DNA of 64,000 bases. It comes from Gyrodactylus bullatarudis. Taxonomy: Eukaryota; Platyhelminthes; Monogenea; Gyrodactylidea; Gyrodactylidae. The first letter of the stretch is position 1; every line of letters begins with the position of its first letter. The position numbers and the translations under genes were made by a program. This document shows positions 3,235 to 64,000 of the stretch, piece by piece. The stretch is taken from positions 8,786 to 72,785 of the forward strand of contig SSNU01000157.1 in assembly GCA_012064415.1 (NCBI GenBank), read 5' to 3'. Under the pieces are notes generated by a model. It was not told where the DNA came from. It worked only from the letters and a program-made list of their open reading frames with translations, and ran no database searches.

Positions 3235-6200
3235 ATGGTTTCGGTAAATAACTTAAATAATTTTCTAGTTTCGAAACTTTAATTTCTTTGAAAGCAATCC
3301 AATTGCTGATGTTGAATATTATTGTTCCCTCAAAAATTTACAAAATGTTCGTATAACTTCTATCGCTGAAGGAAACAATTTCTTTTTCATTGGAGATTAC
3401 GAAGGTCTTGTATTTTGTTTTGACAACTCATTCAATCTACGTCATTTCCGTGCATCAAACTCCTTCTCTGAGATATTTCTCATGAAGTTCAATAACAATA
3501 CAGAGTATCTGTATACAATTAGCAAAACTGAAAATTTCTCTTCAAATTCCAACATTAACATTTGGAACATAAAAGATTGGGCTGATAAACAATTGCCATC
3601 AATTATGAAATCTATAGTTGTGTCGTCTCAAGAAAATAGCAATATTTCTTGTTTTGATTTCACCCCAGACAATCATTTTTTGCTCATAGCCAATTCTTCG
3701 AAGAGTCTTGAAATTATTCGTTTTAATCTTAATAAAGATCAACCTGAGAAGCGTAAAGTATTGAGGACTTTTGATGCAGAAATTACAAATATTTTTTTCG
3801 ACATAAAAAAGTCCAGCTCATCAAAAATTCATCAATTTTATCTTACCACAAATGATAAGATTATGTATTTCTCTATAAATAGAAATCTTGATATTGATAA
3901 TCAGATAAATCTTGACACTAGAGGGTGTTCTCTGTTATGTGCTGTTTTGTACAGAAATGAGAGGTTAGAAACAAACCTCATTGTGGCTAGAGATGATGCT
4001 GTTTTCTTTTATGATCCCTCCGGCAAAGGTCAATGCTTTGCTATGGGTGGTGAAAAGGTTATGGCCAAAGTCTACAAACATAAAATTATCCTTTGGTACA
4101 CTACTGGTATTCCTGAAGAATTAGACGAAAGTAATCCACCTGAACAAAGTGTTTCATTATTATCAAAATTGGCTGATAAGCCCATGGCTAAAATCAAAAT
4201 ATTTGACATTAGTAATAAATTCTTTGCAGGAGAATTCAATTTTTCATTCATGTGTGGAATAATCAGCCTTGATGATAAGGGTATTTTTATAATTTCCTCG
4301 AGGGAGTCAGTTCACGAGCCAAACTACAAGAATTCAATGACTCTCTTGACTGAAAAGAACAACAAGAGCATTTTAGAGATCCTCTTCCAAAAGAATCGCT
4401 ATGACTTGGCCCTAGAATTTGTAAAGAAGAACAATTTGGACCCTTCAAACATCTCCTATATCAATTTAAAGCATGCAGACTATCTGTATAGTAATAAGGC
4501 ATTCTCAGATAGCATTGAAAAGTATATATTCACCATTGGGAACGTGGATTCCTCAGTCATTATACAAAAATTTTTATACTGCAATCGTATAAAAGAGTTA
4601 TCAACATACCTCGAAGCCTTCCACAGGGATGAGAATATTCACTATTGCACTGGTAATCATACACTTTTGTTACTCAACTGCTATACTCGTCTGGGATTAG
4701 AGAGAAAAATTATTGAATTTATTCAAGTGAGTGATTAATCCAACTGTATAATCATAATAACCCCTGAAATTCTGCGAGAAATTAATTTACTATAAGAATT
4801 AAAACCCTTAAGTTTGACTTTTTCCTTGAATCATTTAAAGTGTGATTATAAAAATCATTTATTAAGAGGAAATTTCATAAAATCGTTTTCTTTCACCCAA
4901 TTCTATTTATACTGAAATTCCTATCTACTTGTAGGTAATTTAAAAAGAAATTTCGCCAATGAGAGGAATTATTTGAAAATGTAACAAATAACTCGATCTG
5001 AATACAAAAAAACTTGATAATAATAAAACTTGTAAAGTATTTTATCCATTCCTTGTACTACGTTGGATTTAATGTTCTTTTTTTAATTGTACATATAAAG
5101 ACTTCAAAGGATAAAAAGAACTGGCCTCGATATGATATTTTATCGGTTATCAGATCACTCAGACGATCCTATTATTATTCAGCTGCTTTTGAGCTAGCCA
5201 ACATAAACAATTTCTTCAGTGAAGCAATTGACATTTTGATCGTGGACCAAAAACAGGAAACCCTTGCCATTGATCTTCTTCTTAAGCTTGACTTTAAGCA
5301 GGCAAGTCATCTGACTCATTTTTCTCCATCCTCATTTGAATCCTTTTTTTCACAAGATTATGAAATGTCTCGGACAGTATGGCCGAGTACTCTTCGATAA
5401 GCATCCAGAAAAGGTAGAGGAGATCCTAGAAAGACTCTCTCAGAATGCAGGTAACTTGCTTGTATTAATTGATGATACTTTTTTTCATAGATTTTGACAA
5501 AATTCATCCTGATGACTTTATTAAAATTTTCAACGATAATAAAATTGCCTTGTTAGCTTTTATGAATCGTCTCTACTCAACTGTGAGTGTCTATATATTT
5601 TGAATAATAATTTTACTTAAAGCATGAAAACAACTCGAAACTGGGCTCTAGTGCTTGGCTCATAGAATTCTTGTTGGAGTTGTTACTTTGGGATTATTCA
5701 AACAATAACCAGACTCCTGAAACTCTCAATAGAATTCTCAGTATCCTCAAGAATAAAAAGGATGTCTACTCAAAGGAGAAAGTGTTACTCATGTGCAAAG
5801 AAAAGTCATTTATCCAGGGTTGCCTGATTATCTGGAAAGATCTAAAAGAGTATTTTTAAATAATTATATTTTACTACTGCAGCTATGAAAACCTCATACA
5901 ATATGCCATGGCACAAGATGATTTTGATAAGGTATTCATTCTCACAAAAGAGTACGGGTGTGTTTTAGCTAACTATTTTAATTTAAAAAGAAAAGTTTAT
6001 TATTTCTAATAATAGATCATTGCAGAAAAACTGCTATCTCGATGCCCTCAAATACTTTGCCTCCAAGCAACCCGAGGCGGAGAGTTATCTTGTATCCGTT
6101 CTCAAAAGTAACTTGTTACAACTCTCATCTGTACTTATTTTAGTTATTGATCAGGAGAAAATTACAACTCCAATAAATGTTCTTTTATTACTTCTGGAGA

Positions 6201-14308: not shown

Positions 14309-15261
14309 TCAGTTGAGATATTTAGCAAAGAGTATAGCATCCTTCTTGTTCATTTTTTCAGCAAGAAGTATTGCGTTTGATAGGAGTTGAACTTCTTTCG
14401 GTGTACGACCATGAAGCCATATGATCCCATTGGAGCCAAGGTAAATTTCAAATGGGAATCTTTTACTCAATTCTGCCATAAAAGGGAAATCCCCTTCTGG
14501 ATCTGAAAGTAACCCAATCAAACTAGGATTACAAGACAAAAGTACTCCGCCTTCTTCTGATCCAGCGAATCCAACACCTCCAGACTCATTCCTACCAATA
14601 ATACCTAGGCCATTTGATGTTCCTGTCTGTTCATCAACACAAGTAAGTTCAATATCAAGATCAATATCGGCTACTAAAATTGAAGCATAGACAATGTCAC
14701 CAACTTTGACATCTGGAAGCTTTTTCTTTCCGGCTCCTTCGAATGAAAAAGCGTTCAGTATAGCGGTACTGGATGTGCCAATGTCGATATGGAAATTAAG
14801 AGAAGTTTTTTTGGTACAAATTCCGACAACTTTGTCGCCTTTCTCGAATTGACTCACATGAAAGCGTCTGGGAAAATTAGATTTGGCAATACCCATATGG
14901 TTGTCAAAAGAAATAAAATTATCTATCCATAACTTGTGATAAATTTTATTCTCTTGTGTGAATTCTTTATACTTGAGTATACCAAACTAGAAATATTATA
15001 TGGGAAAATTACATTTTTTATAAGAACAATAGGTTTTAGGGTTCCCGAATCTTGAATGGAAACTTTATTTTCTAGATGTATAATTCCAGAACCGATAATC
15101 CAGGAATGAGAGTTAGGATCTAACTTATCCGCAACTAGCATTTGACCAGGTTTAACATGATTGTTGAAATAGTTACTGATTGGTTCAAAGGAGTATTGTT
15201 TATTGCCATGCGATTCTGAGTCAGTAGGAAGGCTAGCAATTGAGATCGCATCACCTTTCAT
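14309..15261 (-). CDS. EXOSC3: RNA exosome cap subunit RRP40 (EXOSC3)
   Basis: Two exons, 15013-15261 and 14309-14986, joined across a 26-nt intron (14987-15012, GTAATT...TTTCTAG); 308 aa versus about 275 in human. The N-terminal domain begins near VKPGQMLV and IIGSGIIHLENK. After the intron comes FGILKYKEF and LWIDN, then the S1 domain with GDKVVGIC, FSFEGAGKKKLPDVKVGDIVYA and GLGIIG. A KH-like C-terminal part carries LGSNGIIWLHG. RRP40 is one of the three S1/KH cap proteins that thread RNA into the nuclear and cytoplasmic exosome. Without the intron the frame hits a stop before the S1 domain, so the intron or an assembly indel is required. The start is the first ATG giving a complete N-domain. 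Confidence 0.85.
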
Positions 15262-43192: not shown

Positions 43193-43907
43193 TCAGGTTT
43201 TAGTTGAACTTTTTGTGGATCTATGATCTAGGGATTTAGATTTGGAGTACCGAGATGTTGATCGTGAACGACTTCTTTCGTTTCTTCTGTTACTTCGACT
43301 ACGTTCTCGGGTATAACGACTCCTCTTATGATGCGAAGAGTTTTTAGAATACGATTCTGATTTTGAGCTTGACACTTCTGACTGCTTGCTTGTTTTTTTT
43401 TCGTGCTTTTTATTAGTTTCTTCTTTAATGATATTTTCTTCTGGTTTAGGCAAAGTTGGTTCGCATATTTCATTTATAATTGGACTTGCGAAGACTTTAT
43501 CTGTAAAATCTGTTTTTAAACCCTTTTCGGTTTTGCAGTTAATCGGCTCGAATGCATTATTCAAAGTTTCTGATTCAATAAGTTTTTTTCCTGATTTGAA
43601 GTTGAACTTCAATGTAGTATTTTTATTTTCATTTAAATCCCTTGTTGATTCTAAATCAATCTCAGATTTAAGAGATTCTTCATCTTTTTTTGGCGGAGGA
43701 AGTGGTATATCTGACATTTTGAAAGATTTTAAATCCCATTGAATATCTGCCTTATGCCTTGGTCCTATGAGCTTGACATTGAATGCTTAAAAATATAAAT
43801 AATTAACTAACAAGGCATAGGAATCCGTGAAACCTCCAGTATTTCTTGTTCACTAAAAATAATTTAGAGAATGCTTACTCTGTTGGAAAGGCAGGGTCGT
43901 ATTCCAT
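43193..43907 (-). CDS. small RS-domain protein, probable splicing-related factor
   Basis: Three exons, 43879-43907, 43812-43852 and 43193-43785, separated by two 26-nt introns; 220 aa. The N-terminus MEYDPAFPTDEQEI leads into a conserved-looking block, FNVKLIGPRHKADIQWDLK, and KMSDIPLPPPKK. A Lys/Glu-rich middle follows, and the C-terminus is rich in Arg-Ser dipeptides (RSRYTRERSRSNRR, RSRSRSTSRYS). RS domains mediate interactions in pre-mRNA splicing and nuclear speckles, so a splicing-linked nuclear role is inferred. I cannot name the family. It lies 233 bp upstream of SETD2 on the same strand. It ends in its own stop codon, so it is not an extra SETD2 exon. Coding potential of the small exons rests on phase and splice-site consensus. 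Confidence 0.65.
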
Positions 43908-44288
43908 CACGAGTGAATCAAGGAAAAAATAATATAACTAGCATATATTAATAAAAGGTTTAAATATTCGCAAAACTATTATTTATTTAAACAAACAAGG
44001 TTACGCTATGTCACTTGTTTAATAAATTAATTTGTGAATGCTTTAAATTTTTTTTCATAAATTAGTAACTAAAAAAATTACTATGATAATCACAGTGTGA
44101 TTATTTGGTATACTTCGCTACTAGGGATAAATTATGATCCTTATTTTACGGTAAAAATTTATGATAAACTATTGATCTCTTAAATTCTAAATACTTTATT
44201 TTAAAATCTTTGTAAAAAAGACAGAAAAGTAATATTCTTTAGAATTTATTAAAATTAAATCGTTTAAATTATAAAATATCTACTAATT
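43908..44288. other. spacer between RS-protein 5' end and HADHA 3' end
   Basis: No coding sequence seen. AT-rich. Contains the RS-protein promoter. Confidence 0.55.
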
Positions 44289-46965
44289 CTAATATTTGTG
44301 GAATTTCTTCTCTGAATTTTTTGCATGTTCCATCAGTAAATCACATGGCTTAAATTGATTAGGGTGCTTTTTCTGGAATTCTTCCATCCTTTTAACAAGA
44401 CCTGCAGCCCCGTTCAAATCAATGTATCTAAAAGGTCCCCCAAAGTTTGGTGGAAATCCAAGACCAAATACAGCACCTACATCACCTTCTACTGTACCGT
44501 TGACTAAAATTCCTTCTTGCAAGCACAAAACTGCCTCATTAATAAATCTACTAATTAATCTGTACTGTATTTCTTCATCAGAAATTTCAACAGGCGGAAG
44601 TCTAAACTTTTCCAGGATATTTGATAAATCAGGATTCTCGATTCGATCTGATTTTTTAGAGCCTTCTCCATATACAAAAAGACCTTTGCCTGACTTGCGT
44701 CCTAAGTATTTTTTATTGACTAATTCTTTTAGCAGACCGACATTTCCAGATTTTATTCGGTCTCCAAGACGATTTTCTAAGTCTTCAGCCACATGCAGAG
44801 CAACATCTAAGCCTACTTCATCAGCTAATGTTGCCATACCCACAGGCCAACCGAATTTAGAAGTTACTTTGTCCATTCTTGTAGGACTAATTCCCTCTTG
44901 AAATAGGAGGACGGCCTCCAATAACATTGGAGCCAAAAGGCGAGTGGTATAGAAACCTGGGCCATCTTTGACAACAATGATTAGTTTTCCTTGTCTTAGA
45001 CCAACATTGGTAGCAATTTCTAAAAAAGTTAAAACGAAATTTTATGCCTATCTTCAAAATATTATAAAAGTTTTGGTTTTGATTTCTATCTAATTTTAAT
45101 AATTTTTAACTCTTACTCAAAGCCTCTTTTGATGTTTGGTCTGTTGTTATTATCTCAAGAAGTTGCATTTTATCAACAGGTGAGAAGTAATGCATTCCGA
45201 TGACATTTTCAGGATTCTTGCTAACTGAGGCAATTTCTTTTATCGGAAGTGCAGACGTGTTTGAGGCGAAAATTGAATCTGGCCTCATAATTTTTTCAAC
45301 TTCTTTAAGTATTTTATGTTTAACATTAATATCCTCAAAAACTGCTTCAATTATAAGGTCAGAATTCTTTAAATCATTCATTTCAAGAGTTGGGAACAGA
45401 TTAGACATGATCTTGTCACTTTCCAATTGAGTCATACGTTTCTTTTTAATTCGAGATTCAAAATTCTTTTGTATCTGATGGATACCTCGGTCTAGACCAA
45501 TCTGATTTATATCCTTCATATAGCATTTCATATTGTTTTGAATTGTTACCTGAGCTACACCAGCACCCATAAGACCAGATCCAAGAATGCTCACTGTTCT
45601 ACCATGAGAGTTTAGAAGAATTCAAACTCACTCTATAGGCTTATTTGGCTTTCCAAATCGATCTCTTTTACATTCAGTTTGGCCAGCAAACAAACCAAAG
45701 AGAGCTTTAGAAACTGAAGTTTGACCGAGTTCAGCAAAATATTGTGTCTCAAGCTTATAGCCATGCTCTTTACCCTTAGCAAGGCTCTGTTTTGTTAGCT
45801 GAAGAAAATAATCAATCTTTCTATCATTAAAATGATTGAATAAAGAGATAGAGAGAACGAATGACGATAAAATTAAATAATACTAAATCGATAAAAACAT
45901 GTCCAAAGTTCATTTTGATAATTAAAAAACTAACATCAATAATTTTTTCTGGGGCTGGATAGAGACCCTTGGTCATTTTTTTGACTTTCTTTTCAACCAT
46001 TCCAATAAAATAATCCCGACTCATGTCATTTTTGAAAAGTTTATTGGTGATTTCTAAAAAATTAACTTAATATTGACCAACTATCTTGTAGAGAGGGATT
46101 TGGTCTAGATTTTTTCAGTTTTCCAGAAGCTAAATCTCTAAATACAGATTATTTTTATGTAATTTACTTGGCAGTTTTGATAGCGACAGACTCTAAGTAT
46201 AAATGAGTGTTTTTCACTTCGTCATGAATTCCAGGTCCGAGAGGAGAAACTATCTGATCAATGATTCCTAGTTTTTTGGCTTTATCGGCCTTTTTAGGAG
46301 CACCAGTGAGCATCATTTGAAGACCTTCACTTACACTAATGCAAGATTCAAAAATCCTCTGACTGCCTCCAGCACCTGGCAAAATACCAAGCTGAACTTC
46401 CGGGAATCCAAATACGGTTTTTTTATCTTTAACTGCAATTCTGTAATGAGTTGCTAAAGCTAGTTCAAGGCCACCTCCAAGACATGAGCCCATAATAGCT
46501 GAAACAATGGGTTTTTTTGATTTTTCAATCAAATCAAATTGATCTTTTGCTTCACTATAAAGGAGAAAAATAATTCGAAAAATTACGATGACAGCTGAGC
46601 CAATTCTTTTTCAGATTTACAATCCTTCAACATTTTAATATCAGCTCCTGCAATAAAACAGCCTGGTTTTCCTGAGATTAAAACAGCAGCAGATGCACTA
46701 GGATCAGATTGAAATTTTTGGAAAGCATTTAAAAGTTCCTCAGAGAATGACTTTGAAAGAGAATTAACCTAGGAAATTATAAAATGGTGGATTACAGGAG
46801 AATCTGGTGCGTCAAATTTTATAACTGCGACATTTTCCTTGACAGTGTATGAGATAGCTTGTTTAGATGATAAGAATCGCCTAAAATCTTGATTTTATGT
46901 GGAAAATTTGAATTACTATAGCATGAATTAAGTCTAGAAATATTCTTGAGGTTGTACCGGATCAT
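44289..46965 (-). CDS. HADHA: Mitochondrial trifunctional enzyme subunit alpha (long-chain enoyl-CoA hydratase / 3-hydroxyacyl-CoA dehydrogenase)
   Basis: Nine exons: 46917-46965, 46796-46887, 46587-46768, 46168-46554, 46082-46137, 45935-46053, 45632-45798, 45117-45598, 44289-45019; 754 aa (human 763). The start gives a basic mitochondrial presequence with RRFLSS. The hydratase domain has the oxyanion motif [13 protein letters not shown] and catalytic Glu138 (GGGLE) and Glu160 (FPEVQLG), spaced 22 as in human. A linker [13 protein letters not shown] follows. The dehydrogenase domain has the NAD loop [16 protein letters not shown] and catalytic His in [16 protein letters not shown]. The C-terminal domains include [17 protein letters not shown] and [13 protein letters not shown]. 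It catalyses steps two and three of long-chain beta-oxidation with the beta subunit at the inner membrane. Six of its eight introns are 27-33 nt; retention breaks the frame or adds stops. Confidence 0.95.
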
Positions 46966-47059
46966 TTCTCAGAATGTTGTAATTGATCCTTAGCCTTAGA
47001 AAAACAAAATTTTCTGATTAGAATATTTGTTTTTTCTTTAAAAGCTTGTATTTTATAAA
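46966..47059. promoter_or_regulatory. 94-bp divergent promoter HADHA / EXOSC9
   Basis: Only 94 bp separate the two start codons, so both 5'UTRs and the shared core promoter must fit here. It is T-rich towards EXOSC9, with TATTTTATAAA immediately before its ATG. No CCAAT box seen. Confidence 0.5.
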
Positions 47060-48292
47060 ATGCTAAAACATGATAACAAATCTTATATTGAAAAATCAAC
47101 GTTACAGTCTCTTCTAGGAACAGATTTACGTCTAGATGGACGTTCTAAACATGAATATAGAGATATATCGATTACATTCCCTCCCAATTTTGAAACAAAT
47201 GGAGGCTCTTCCATTGCTCAAATAGGCAGTACCAAGATTTTAGCAACTACAACCTGGGATATTTTTGAACCCGGATTTAATAGGCCAAAATCAGGTTTCT
47301 TCTTCTGTTCTTTAGACTTGTCATATCTTTCTTTAACAACAGGTTAGTCTCTCTATCTTATTCTATTAGGAAAGTCGAAGCTCAAGGAAATCGAAAATGA
47401 AGGAAAACAATTATCCGGAATCATTCAGACACTTCTTAGGGATTCTATATCACTTGATGAACTTGTAATTAGCCCTTATGAACGGGTTTTTGCAATAAAA
47501 ATGGATCTCAAGGTTCTTTCTTTTGATGGAAATGTTATAGACTGTGGAACCTTGGCGGCAGTTGTGGCTCTACTCACCTTCAAATTGCCTAGTTTATATA
47601 TTGATGATTCTGGTAAAATAATTGTTGACGAATTCGGGAAAAAATCTTCTAAAGTATTCGTTAGAATGAACAGGATTCCTGTTCTTGTATCCCTTGGACT
47701 TACCGGGATACCAGATGGTACTTTGATTGACACGACGGCTAAAGAAGAGAACAACCTAATAGTTGGAAGAATCTTGGCAGGTGTCACAGAATACGGAGAA
47801 ATCTGTTGCTTTCGTACATCTCATCTTTCAAATCCTATCAGTTTTTATGATGTCTCTGAATGTTCAAAGATAGCCCTGATCAAAGGCAAAGATCTTATAA
47901 AATTCATAAAAATAGTAGTCAAAGATGTCACCAAGTACATGTTGGAATTTGATCAAAAGAGAAGGAAGAATCCAAGTGATCTCTTGGAAATTTCAGGTCC
48001 ACGTGTTTATCGTTCAGAGGAATTCTTCGGTCAGAATATCTATGCACCAAAGAGAGTAGATGGAGAAACTGGAGAGGTTGACATGGAAATTGAAAGTGCA
48101 GATAGTGACCAAGAAGATCATCCTAATCTTACACAAAAGTCTAAAATTGAAGACCCGATTCTTAGACCTTGGCCTGTTAAAGAAAAGTCTAATTTCCAAC
48201 AGGAAAGAGATCCTAAGGACGACCAGCTATATAGTATTGATTTCAGTGAATTCCTTCTTACTGCCAAGCCTGGCATAAATGATTATCAATAA
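47060..48292 (+). CDS. EXOSC9: RNA exosome core subunit RRP45 (EXOSC9)
   Basis: Exons 47060-47342 and 47370-48292, joined across a 27-nt intron (GTTAGT...ATTAG) whose retention gives an immediate TAG; 401 aa (human 439). An RNase PH fold covers residues 1 to about 290. It opens with LRLDGRSKHEYRDISITF, then IAQIGSTKILATT, then IKMDLKVLSFDGNVIDCGTLAAVVAL and NRIPVLVSLGL. The C-terminal tail is acidic and low-complexity, as in other RRP45 proteins. RRP45 pairs with RRP41 in the catalytically inert hexameric ring of the exosome. The C-terminal tail is shorter than in vertebrates. A second exosome gene (EXOSC3) lies about 32 kb away. Confidence 0.9.
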
Positions 48293-61797: not shown

Positions 61798-62276
61798 TTA
61801 CTCCATTTTATATTTCTACAGACTCTTTTTTGCTAATAGAATACAGAGTATAATGATAATAATGAAATTATATATAATTCAGTATAAAAATACACACCCA
61901 CAACATTTTATTCATAGATTTATTAAATATGTTTGTATGCTACAATAGTATATTATATATAAGTTTGTGTGTATATATAGAATAGACACAAGCATATATT
62001 GTAATATAGGGTATATTCTGTTATTTAGGTAATAAAGTATGTATATGTATACATAGAATGTAACACACCTCTACACCTATACGCTAACTATACCTATATT
62101 GTAGTAGTATTCTATATGATTGTGTACTTAAGAGAAGAAACACCGTCGGATGTAAACTAATCTCCGTTCCGTGTGTGTGTTCTCTTCTGCACAAGACATA
62201 TAAATACTCACTTGACAAAATTAAACAGCTCATTATACTGACTGTGGATTATCATAAATTGAACAAAAATATCGTA

Positions 62277-63530
62277 ATGGCTACAGATTCTAGTGATAAC
62301 GGTCTAAATTCTCCGACCATCACCAAAAATTATTTAGATATATTCAATCCAGCTCAATTATTATCCACAATGGAAATGCAAACTACGAACCCATCACCTA
62401 TTCCATCTTCCATATGTCCCAAGTGTGGCAAGAATTTTGCTAATATCTACCGATTACAACGACACCTTCTAAGTCATACGGAGAGTAAGGAATTGAGAAA
62501 ATTTCAGTGTGAACTCTGCTCAAAAGCTTTCAAATTCAAACATCACCTTAAGGAGCATACGAGAATTCATTCGGGAGAGAAGCCGTTTGCCTGTAAGGAG
62601 TGCGGCAAAAGATTCTCTCATTCTGGTTCCTACTCAAGTCATATGTCGAGTAAAAAGTGTAGCAATAACAACAACTGCAGCAGCATCAGTAACGGTAGCG
62701 TCAAGAGTCACGAAGACCTTCAACAGATATTGAGTGAGAACCAGTTTGGAATTAAACCATCGCAGACCTTTTCCTTTTCTCCGGTTTCACTAATTTCTGA
62801 GGAGAATAATAATAACAAAATCAGTATGATATCAGATTTAGAAATGAGAGAAAAGAATTCAACTTCAGAGGAACAGAGAAGATGTAGATCTGTGATACGT
62901 CCAGATCAAGTTGAGAAATTACGACACTTCTTCCGAATAAATCCCCTCCCATCAGCAATGGAATTGCAAAATCTAAGCCAAGAAGTTGGCCTCAAGACAA
63001 AAGTTATTCGTGTATGGTTCCAGAACGCTCGTTCTAGAGACAGAAAGTCGAATAGATACACTACATCAATTTCATCCACAATGAGCAATAGTCAGAGAGA
63101 GAGCCCAGAGCCATTAAACTGTGAATCGAAAAAGATACGATTAGACGAAATACCCCTTGACCTATCTCAGAATCATGAGGCCCACGATGAATCGACCAGC
63201 TCTCCCCTACAATATTGGACACGAATTTACCTGAAACTTAGCCAAGAGTTGAATAGGAACCTTGCTCCGCCAACTTTACCTTCCTGTCTAAATCCCAATC
63301 CTCAAATGCTCTTTGAAAATCTCTTCAGTGGTTCGGTAGCCAAGGAAAAGAACGAAGATTGGTCTCAAACATTTAATAATCTTCTGACAATACCGACGCC
63401 AAATGAACTTCTCTCAATGAATCTTCACAATCAGACAAAAATATCGCCCGATTTACCATGTCAAACGCTTAGCCAAACAACAAATTTAATCCAAACAGAT
63501 GGGTTGGACGAAAATGGATCCCTACAATTT
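62277..63530 (+). CDS. zfh-1/ZEB zinc-finger homeodomain transcription factor (5' part)
   Basis: The first 418 codons, from ATG 62277 to a phase-0 donor (TTT|GTAAGT at 63531). Three tandem fingers lie at 47-128. Finger 1 is [21 protein letters not shown]; finger 2 is [17 protein letters not shown]; finger 3 is [23 protein letters not shown], with the C2HC ending typical of zfh-1/ZEB. The homeodomain spans about 204-262 with [11 protein letters not shown] (247-257). PLDLS (293-297) is a CtBP-recruiting motif. The family represses E-box genes in mesoderm and neurons. The C-terminal finger cluster should follow outside the window. A further upstream in-frame stretch without ATG (from 62175) exists, so an extra upstream exon is possible. 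The N-terminal cluster has three fingers here, one fewer than usual. Confidence 0.92.
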
Positions 63531-64000
63531 GTAAGTCATTTAACCTTGAAATCAAATTACATACATACATACGGATTTATATTCATTTATCATATAATTT
63601 ATCACAATAATATATAGCAATATTTAGTTAATTTTGGACAAATATACGTTACCCACACTATGCCCAGTTATAAGTAGACCATATGCTAGGCTAATTATAA
63701 TTATGTCATTATTAAAAATATTCGTACAATATAGCATATTTATATTTATATGAAGGTGTTGAGCTTTTCTCACTTGTGTAACTTTAGACGACCAATTTTT
63801 ATTTGTTTTTGACTTTGGGAATTTAGATTTTATCAAATGCATAGACAGACAGATATATATTTGAGTAAACATGAAGAAAAGAGAAAAAACCTAATTTCTT
63901 GTATGTGTGTGAGCGTATAGAGTGAGGGAGGCTAATGATAACACCCTTGGATAATTTGTTTTATCCTCTGCTGCCATTTAACGAAGCGTAGATGTAAATT
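63531..64000 (+). other. start of a zfh-1 intron
   Basis: Begins with GTAAGT. No coding sequence seen to the window end. AT-rich. Confidence 0.6.

Follow-up and report, generated by a model that had tools for sequence, protein, structure and literature searches.

The stretch of contig SSNU01000157.1 analysed here, which is 64,000 nucleotides (nt) long and is referred to below as the window, carries the gene for trifunctional enzyme alpha (HADHA) together with EXOSC9, EXOSC3/RRP40, VPS11 and a gene for an RS protein. A sequence-only reading of this DNA had proposed that twelve short segments in these genes are ultra-short spliceosomal introns. The coordinates of all twelve were borne out: each segment is 25-33 nt long, is bounded by GT and AG on the coding strand and, if kept, either shifts the reading frame (seven segments) or adds an in-frame stop (the five whose lengths are divisible by three, i.e., the 27-, 30- and 33-nt introns of HADHA, the 27-nt intron of EXOSC9 and the 33-nt intron of VPS11). 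We regard the observation of ultra-short introns as confirmed. The HADHA gene and its introns are listed below, where recovery without homology refers to a gene finder built from the codon usage of conserved exons and splice-site matrices.

44289..46966, minus strand: HADHA gene, spliced product of 755 amino acids
46888..46916, minus strand: intron of 29 nt, GTAATT...CAAG, in an N-terminal part of low conservation, not recovered by the gene finder
46769..46795, minus strand: intron of 27 nt, gapless against human HADHA, found without homology
46555..46586, minus strand: intron of 32 nt, gapless against human HADHA, found without homology
46138..46167, minus strand: intron of 30 nt, gapless, with in-frame stops if kept, found without homology
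46054..46081, minus strand: intron of 28 nt, with a one-residue gap six residues upstream, found without homology
45799..45934, minus strand: intron of 136 nt from the gene finder, with a one-residue gap at the join, absent from the sequence-only reading
45599..45631, minus strand: intron of 33 nt, gapless, found without homology
45020..45116, minus strand: intron of 97 nt from the gene finder, gapless, absent from the sequence-only reading

The spliced HADHA product aligns with human trifunctional enzyme alpha in one stretch covering residues 14-753, and the junctions of four of the six short introns (27, 32, 30 and 33 nt) are gapless in this comparison. The same class occurs elsewhere in the assembly, which totals 77.3 Mb in 471 contigs. 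Beyond the window we examined a 200-kb part of contig C467, including 17.5 kb of N, and 26 short loci. The loci include part of PRP8 and nine chaperonin genes, of which eight belong to the CCT family and one is HSP60-like; four chaperonin subunits were named via solved homologs and the remainder by eye. Against solved structures, gapless joins were found at introns of 28, 63, 54 and 59 nt in CCT beta, 31, 30, 109 and 57 nt in CCT zeta, 29, 33 and 58 nt in CCT delta, and 32, 69 and 56 nt in CCT theta. Six of these junctions belong to introns of 28-33 nt, and they substantiate the earlier proposal that a recurrent ultra-short class exists beside longer introns. Altogether, gapless joins were obtained for 10 of the 23 introns in the 25-33-nt range, in five genes (HADHA and CCT beta, zeta, delta and theta). 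In the ISWI remodeller gene (C467, ~92591-99308), introns of 25, 33 and 56 nt lie near the gene start; the 56-nt join is gapless, and the 33-nt join is conserved on its downstream side only. A gap of ~3.2 kb precedes the apparent C-terminal half of this gene, both parts being read here as one; on that reading it fits the statement of the sequence-only reading that larger introns reach 6 kb. The chaperonin domains at C404 and C468 (CCT-family) and at C443 (HSP60-like) lie in single open frames without introns, in contrast to the other six chaperonin genes; by eye, C443 reads as mitochondrial HSP60 and C468 as a CCT-family match.

Since the evidence comes from one assembly, such segments might be assembly indels or decayed pseudogenes that mimic introns. 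We consider this highly improbable, as the segments all measure 25-33 nt, all run from GT to AG and occur on different contigs, in several conserved genes that are intact; moreover, the spliced products of HADHA and CCT beta, zeta, delta and theta align over almost their full length, and decoy ends seldom fit, as described below.

For length and composition we assembled 37 introns from 13 well-supported genes, hand-chosen rather than random. This set omits the 136- and 97-nt introns of HADHA, a PRP8 intron of ambiguous length (57 or 66 nt), introns that the gene finder placed outside the conserved parts at C269, C404, C443 and C468, a 40-nt candidate in VPS11 and a possible 66-nt intron in EXOSC3. 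It contains 23 introns of 25-33 nt, none of 34-49 nt, 12 of 53-71 nt and two longer ones. All 37 have GT-AG ends, a criterion that the finder imposes except for the introns of the sequence-only reading. The donors of the short introns mostly read GT, then A or T, then A, and T makes up 53% of their interior and G 4%. The best branch-like A is located a median 11 nt upstream of the intron end (range 5-20) and 17 nt from the start. A G at position +5 is found in 11 of 23 short versus 12 of 12 longer donors (Fisher p 0.002); the corresponding fractions in homology-unchecked predictions are 0/2 and 12/18, and for this reason the contrast needs more data. Short introns also lie nearer the 5' end of their genes than the 53-71-nt class (Mann-Whitney p 0.0009, 20 versus 10 introns, the genes not being independent); gene position is lacking for three of the 23 short introns (two in VPS11, one in PRP8) and for two of the 12 longer ones (PRP8).

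The gene finder, whose matrices were derived in the first pass from the twelve introns of the sequence-only reading and later from 33 introns (21 of them from the loci described here), recovered the full CCT proteins. Its later runs used a flat intron-length prior of 12-200 nt; the first version, in which intron length was uncapped, fused neighbouring genes and was dropped. In a matched-locus decoy test, which came after the 264-kb runs described below, 18 introns of 25-33 nt were predicted with GT-AG ends at 12 loci, compared with 0, 3, 3, 3, 1, 0 and 1 for seven decoy dinucleotide pairs. At the same loci, introns of 50-75 nt numbered 13 with GT-AG and 5-12 with decoys, so that the case for this longer class rests on the protein joins. 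When introns shorter than 34 nt were barred, the score fell at each of the 10 loci with such an intron (from 176 to 105 for HADHA, from 180 to 150 for ISWI, by 7-19 at six chaperonin loci, by 3 for PRP8 and by the 0.9 bits that the 27-nt intron adds for EXOSC9), whereas it was unchanged at two loci without short introns.

The other short introns of the window are the following:

47343..47369, plus strand: EXOSC9 intron of 27 nt, with an in-frame stop if kept, recovered by the gene finder with a small gain; homologs distant
14987..15012, minus strand: EXOSC3/RRP40 intron of 26 nt, supported by frame only
3244..3268, plus strand: VPS11 intron of 25 nt, supported by frame only, following a three-codon first coding exon with its ATG at 3235
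5850..5882, plus strand: VPS11 intron of 33 nt, with an in-frame stop if kept
43853..43878, minus strand: RS-gene intron of 26 nt, supported by frame only
43786..43811, minus strand: RS-gene intron of 26 nt, supported by frame only

The EXOSC9 intron is consistent with solved relatives, though these are distant at that place. For the remaining five segments (the 26-nt intron of EXOSC3, the 25- and 33-nt introns of VPS11 and both RS introns), the basis is reading frame plus splice consensus. The homology and domain match of EXOSC3 begins downstream of the 26-nt junction, the VPS11 domain begins at residue 2 past the 25-nt junction, Pfam gave no match for the RS protein, and the homology-free gene finder did not report the VPS11 and RS genes. 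The 66-nt candidate in EXOSC3 was spotted by eye, and the 40-nt candidate in VPS11 is additional to the two introns listed.

Several results weigh against the interpretation of these segments as a genome-wide class of introns. A clean homology join is absent for 13 of the 23 short introns, and in EXOSC3 the gene finder picked a 170-nt intron in place of the 26-nt one. The matrices of the decoy test were partly trained on introns of the tested loci, and one of the 18 short introns predicted there, situated past the HSP60 domain at C443, is doubtful. Decoys outscored GT-AG at three of the 12 loci, namely CCT zeta (two decoys), C404 (two) and EXOSC9 (three), and at CCT zeta the GT-AG model with a 100-nt minimum also scored above plain GT-AG; we read the higher decoy scores at these three loci as merging of neighbouring genes or spurious extensions. 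A codon-score scan for junctions in 264 kb, of which 17.5 kb are N, gave no excess of GT-AG over decoys, because the coding model was not strong enough and accepted other frames within exons. A gene-finder run over the same 264 kb, with capped intron length and a threshold of 4, gave 5 events at 25-35 nt versus 0-2 for decoys, a weak excess with too few events to decide. Eight of 28 other predicted introns of 80 nt or less, which are homology-unchecked, measure 37-49 nt; we therefore claim two length classes, a clean gap between the peaks not being established. The short introns have no strong branch-point consensus, the sample of 13 genes is small, and introns within one gene are not independent.

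Genome-wide, the pattern GTAAWT-N-TTYTAG occurs 6535 times at 18-48 nt, including 2139 times at 25-33 nt. The resulting share is 0.327, whereas the reversed pattern gives 0.274 (z 7.1) and a flat spread would give 0.290; the excess amounts to ~340-480 sites. On the opposing side, the reversed-pattern control is commoner overall and is not dinucleotide-matched. The wide count took one match per start, which gives a slight undercount for pattern and control alike. Since only two of the 23 known short introns contain the GTAAWT...TTYTAG pair, the class probably numbers in the thousands, by rough extrapolation.

On this evidence we hold with high confidence that the segments are U2-type spliceosomal introns, belonging to the microintron class of flatworms and, in this monopisthocotylean monogenean, reduced to 25-33 nt and recurrent genome-wide. 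Their removal by splicing, like its manner, is inferred from the DNA sequence: an ordinary U2-type spliceosome would recognize them by intron definition across a minimal unit. This unit would consist of a GT(A/T)A donor and a degenerate branch A, guessed to lie ~9-12 nt before the AG, that may pair with U2 via GTGTAGTA, while the T-rich, G-poor interior may double as the pyrimidine tract. Because 26 nt cannot seat all factors at once, the U1, branch-site and 3'-site factors would have to act in sequence or share contacts. The shortness probably arose by deletion down to a physical minimum in a compact genome. Genes for PRP8 and U2 were found in the assembly. The scant room for all spliceosomal factors on 26 nt might also suggest non-spliceosomal removal, for instance by an endonuclease plus ligase, as with HAC1/XBP1, or bypass of the segments by frameshifting. 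However, such a route is made very unlikely by the GT-AG ends, the donor shape, the T-rich interior, the ordinary 53-71-nt introns beside them in the same genes and the fact that PRP8, U2 and U6-like genes are present. The U12-type donor is RTATCCTT; it was found in none of the 37 donors, and a U12-type assignment was rejected.

The small nuclear RNA (snRNA) genes bear on whether this worm has an altered spliceosome. In the 77-Mb assembly a single U6 core was found (C154:241223-241325), and it reads ACAGAAA instead of ACAGAGA; a search of the assembly with two U6 patterns, at up to three mismatches, found no other core. The altered position is the box G (yeast G52 / human G46), which we take to be part of the catalytic triplex. 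The C154 gene is the best U6 gene, with 91 bits in a covariance search that scored 48 of 11714 candidates; its 3' domain is intact, a GGAACG/CGUUCC pair is present, and its 5' part is divergent with a poor stem-loop. A second U6-like copy (C426:539063-539163, 54.7 bits) is degenerate and probably a pseudogene, and folding of the U6-like genes gave nothing above shuffles. The ACAGAGA box has been linked to pairing with the 5' splice site and to active-site tertiary contacts (PMC9505925, PMC4081067). As 9-55 U6 copies are given for Schistosoma mansoni (PMC2770079), it is quite possible that an array of normal U6 genes is missing here, and the ACAGAAA copy may itself be a pseudogene.

Two U2 copies with identical cores were found (C241:135233-135262 and C408:230270-230299). 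The branch-site recognition sequence GTGTAGTA is intact in both, and both read GATCATGTGTAGTA, the vertebrate counterpart being GATCAAGTGTAGTA; in the cores, GATCATGTG stands for the vertebrate GATCAAGTG. Other U2 copies may have been missed, because both lie at the three-mismatch limit of the search pattern. A remodelled catalytic centre (U6 with ACAGAAA and an altered U2) that handles introns of 25-33 nt would be consistent with these changes and with the lack of +5G in about half of the ultra-short donors, but such a change of the spliceosome itself appears unlikely, if less so than the alternatives considered so far.

Protein comparisons identify the animal as a neodermatan, hence parasitic, flatworm close to the monogenean Cichlidogyrus. 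The best match of CCT theta is from Cichlidogyrus casuarinus, a monopisthocotylean monogenean (846 bits, 68%), and among its first 18 matches all 12 named proteins are from flatworms, the other six having no name. HADHA also matches Cichlidogyrus best (957 bits), followed by an unnamed protein and then a mollusc; EXOSC9, tried as a taxonomic probe, gave no match. The assembly size of 77.3 Mb and the GC content of 32.5% in 264 kb stand beside 67-91 Mb and 31-39% in gyrodactylid genomes (PMC12677651), values that make the genus Gyrodactylus likely.

The genome might instead be that of a dicyemid, and the short introns hence the published dicyemid case. Dicyemid introns have a median of 27 base pairs (bp), with about two thirds below 30 bp (PMC6543705), i.e., they are alike in length, and the dicyemid genome (67.5 Mb) is of similar size. 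Against this, the best matches are monogenean, then trematode and cestode proteins (dicyemid proteins being outside the comparison), and the GC content is 0.325 in the 264 kb examined versus 36.7% in Dicyema japonicum, and we give the dicyemid identity very little credence. The length range is shared with dicyemids, whereas longer introns are common here, in a different lineage, and the mean intron of D. japonicum is 38 bp (PMC6543705, PMC6736024). Both dicyemid and ciliate origins were rejected on the basis of flatworm protein matches and of GPCR (G-protein-coupled receptor) and homeodomain genes. In the window, the first of a pair of long open frames (1354-2820 and 62088-63617) encodes a rhodopsin-type GPCR, and the second a zinc-finger plus homeodomain protein.

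The sequence-only reading had named dicyemids as the animal precedent, which is apt for length but overlooks the microintrons already described in flatworms. Opisthorchis felineus has intron peaks at 37 and 90 bp, and microintrons occur in further flatworms (PMC6530080). The microintrons of O. felineus favour the 5' end of genes, are closer to the splice-site consensus, and such introns can be underrepresented in draft annotations via length thresholds (PMC6530080). As in O. felineus, a very short class that is commoner towards the 5' end occurs here beside longer introns; however, the peaks here are at 25-33 and ~53-71 nt rather than at 37 and 90 bp, and +5G is found here in 11 of 23 short versus 12 of 12 longer introns. 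Tapeworm introns peak at ~36 and ~73 bp, and a two-peak feature is also described in Gyrodactylus salaris, a relative possibly of the same genus (PMC5036155). Two short peaks are likewise seen here, but the tapeworm peak-1 introns lie towards the 3' end (PMC5036155), whereas the shortest introns here lie towards the 5' end. As flatworm microintrons, including the two-peak monogenean pattern, are in print, the class is not unprecedented in such animals; it is unusual in how short it is, its kind being known and its length at the lower end. In our searches of open-licence papers we found no published 25-33-nt intron peak in a monogenean; the short peak of G. salaris may already be this short. 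Tiny GT-AG introns are also handled by the spliceosome in the ciliate Stentor, which has introns of 15-16 nt, all five major snRNAs and a reportedly conserved ACAGAGA box; there, by contrast, the length is nearly fixed and the branch A lies mostly at position 10 or 11 (PMC9505925).

These findings add a monogenean flatworm to the animals whose spliceosomal introns are the shortest, its introns being as short as those of dicyemids, and suggest that flatworm microintrons can run ~8 nt below the published peaks of flukes and tapeworms. The proteomes of gyrodactylids have BUSCO scores of 57-63% (PMC12677651), and introns below the annotation threshold may partly explain these low values. Gyrodactylus kobayashii is maintained on goldfish as an experimental line, with reads in BioProject PRJNA1168307 (PMC12677651), and the physical minimum of an animal intron becomes testable in this group.

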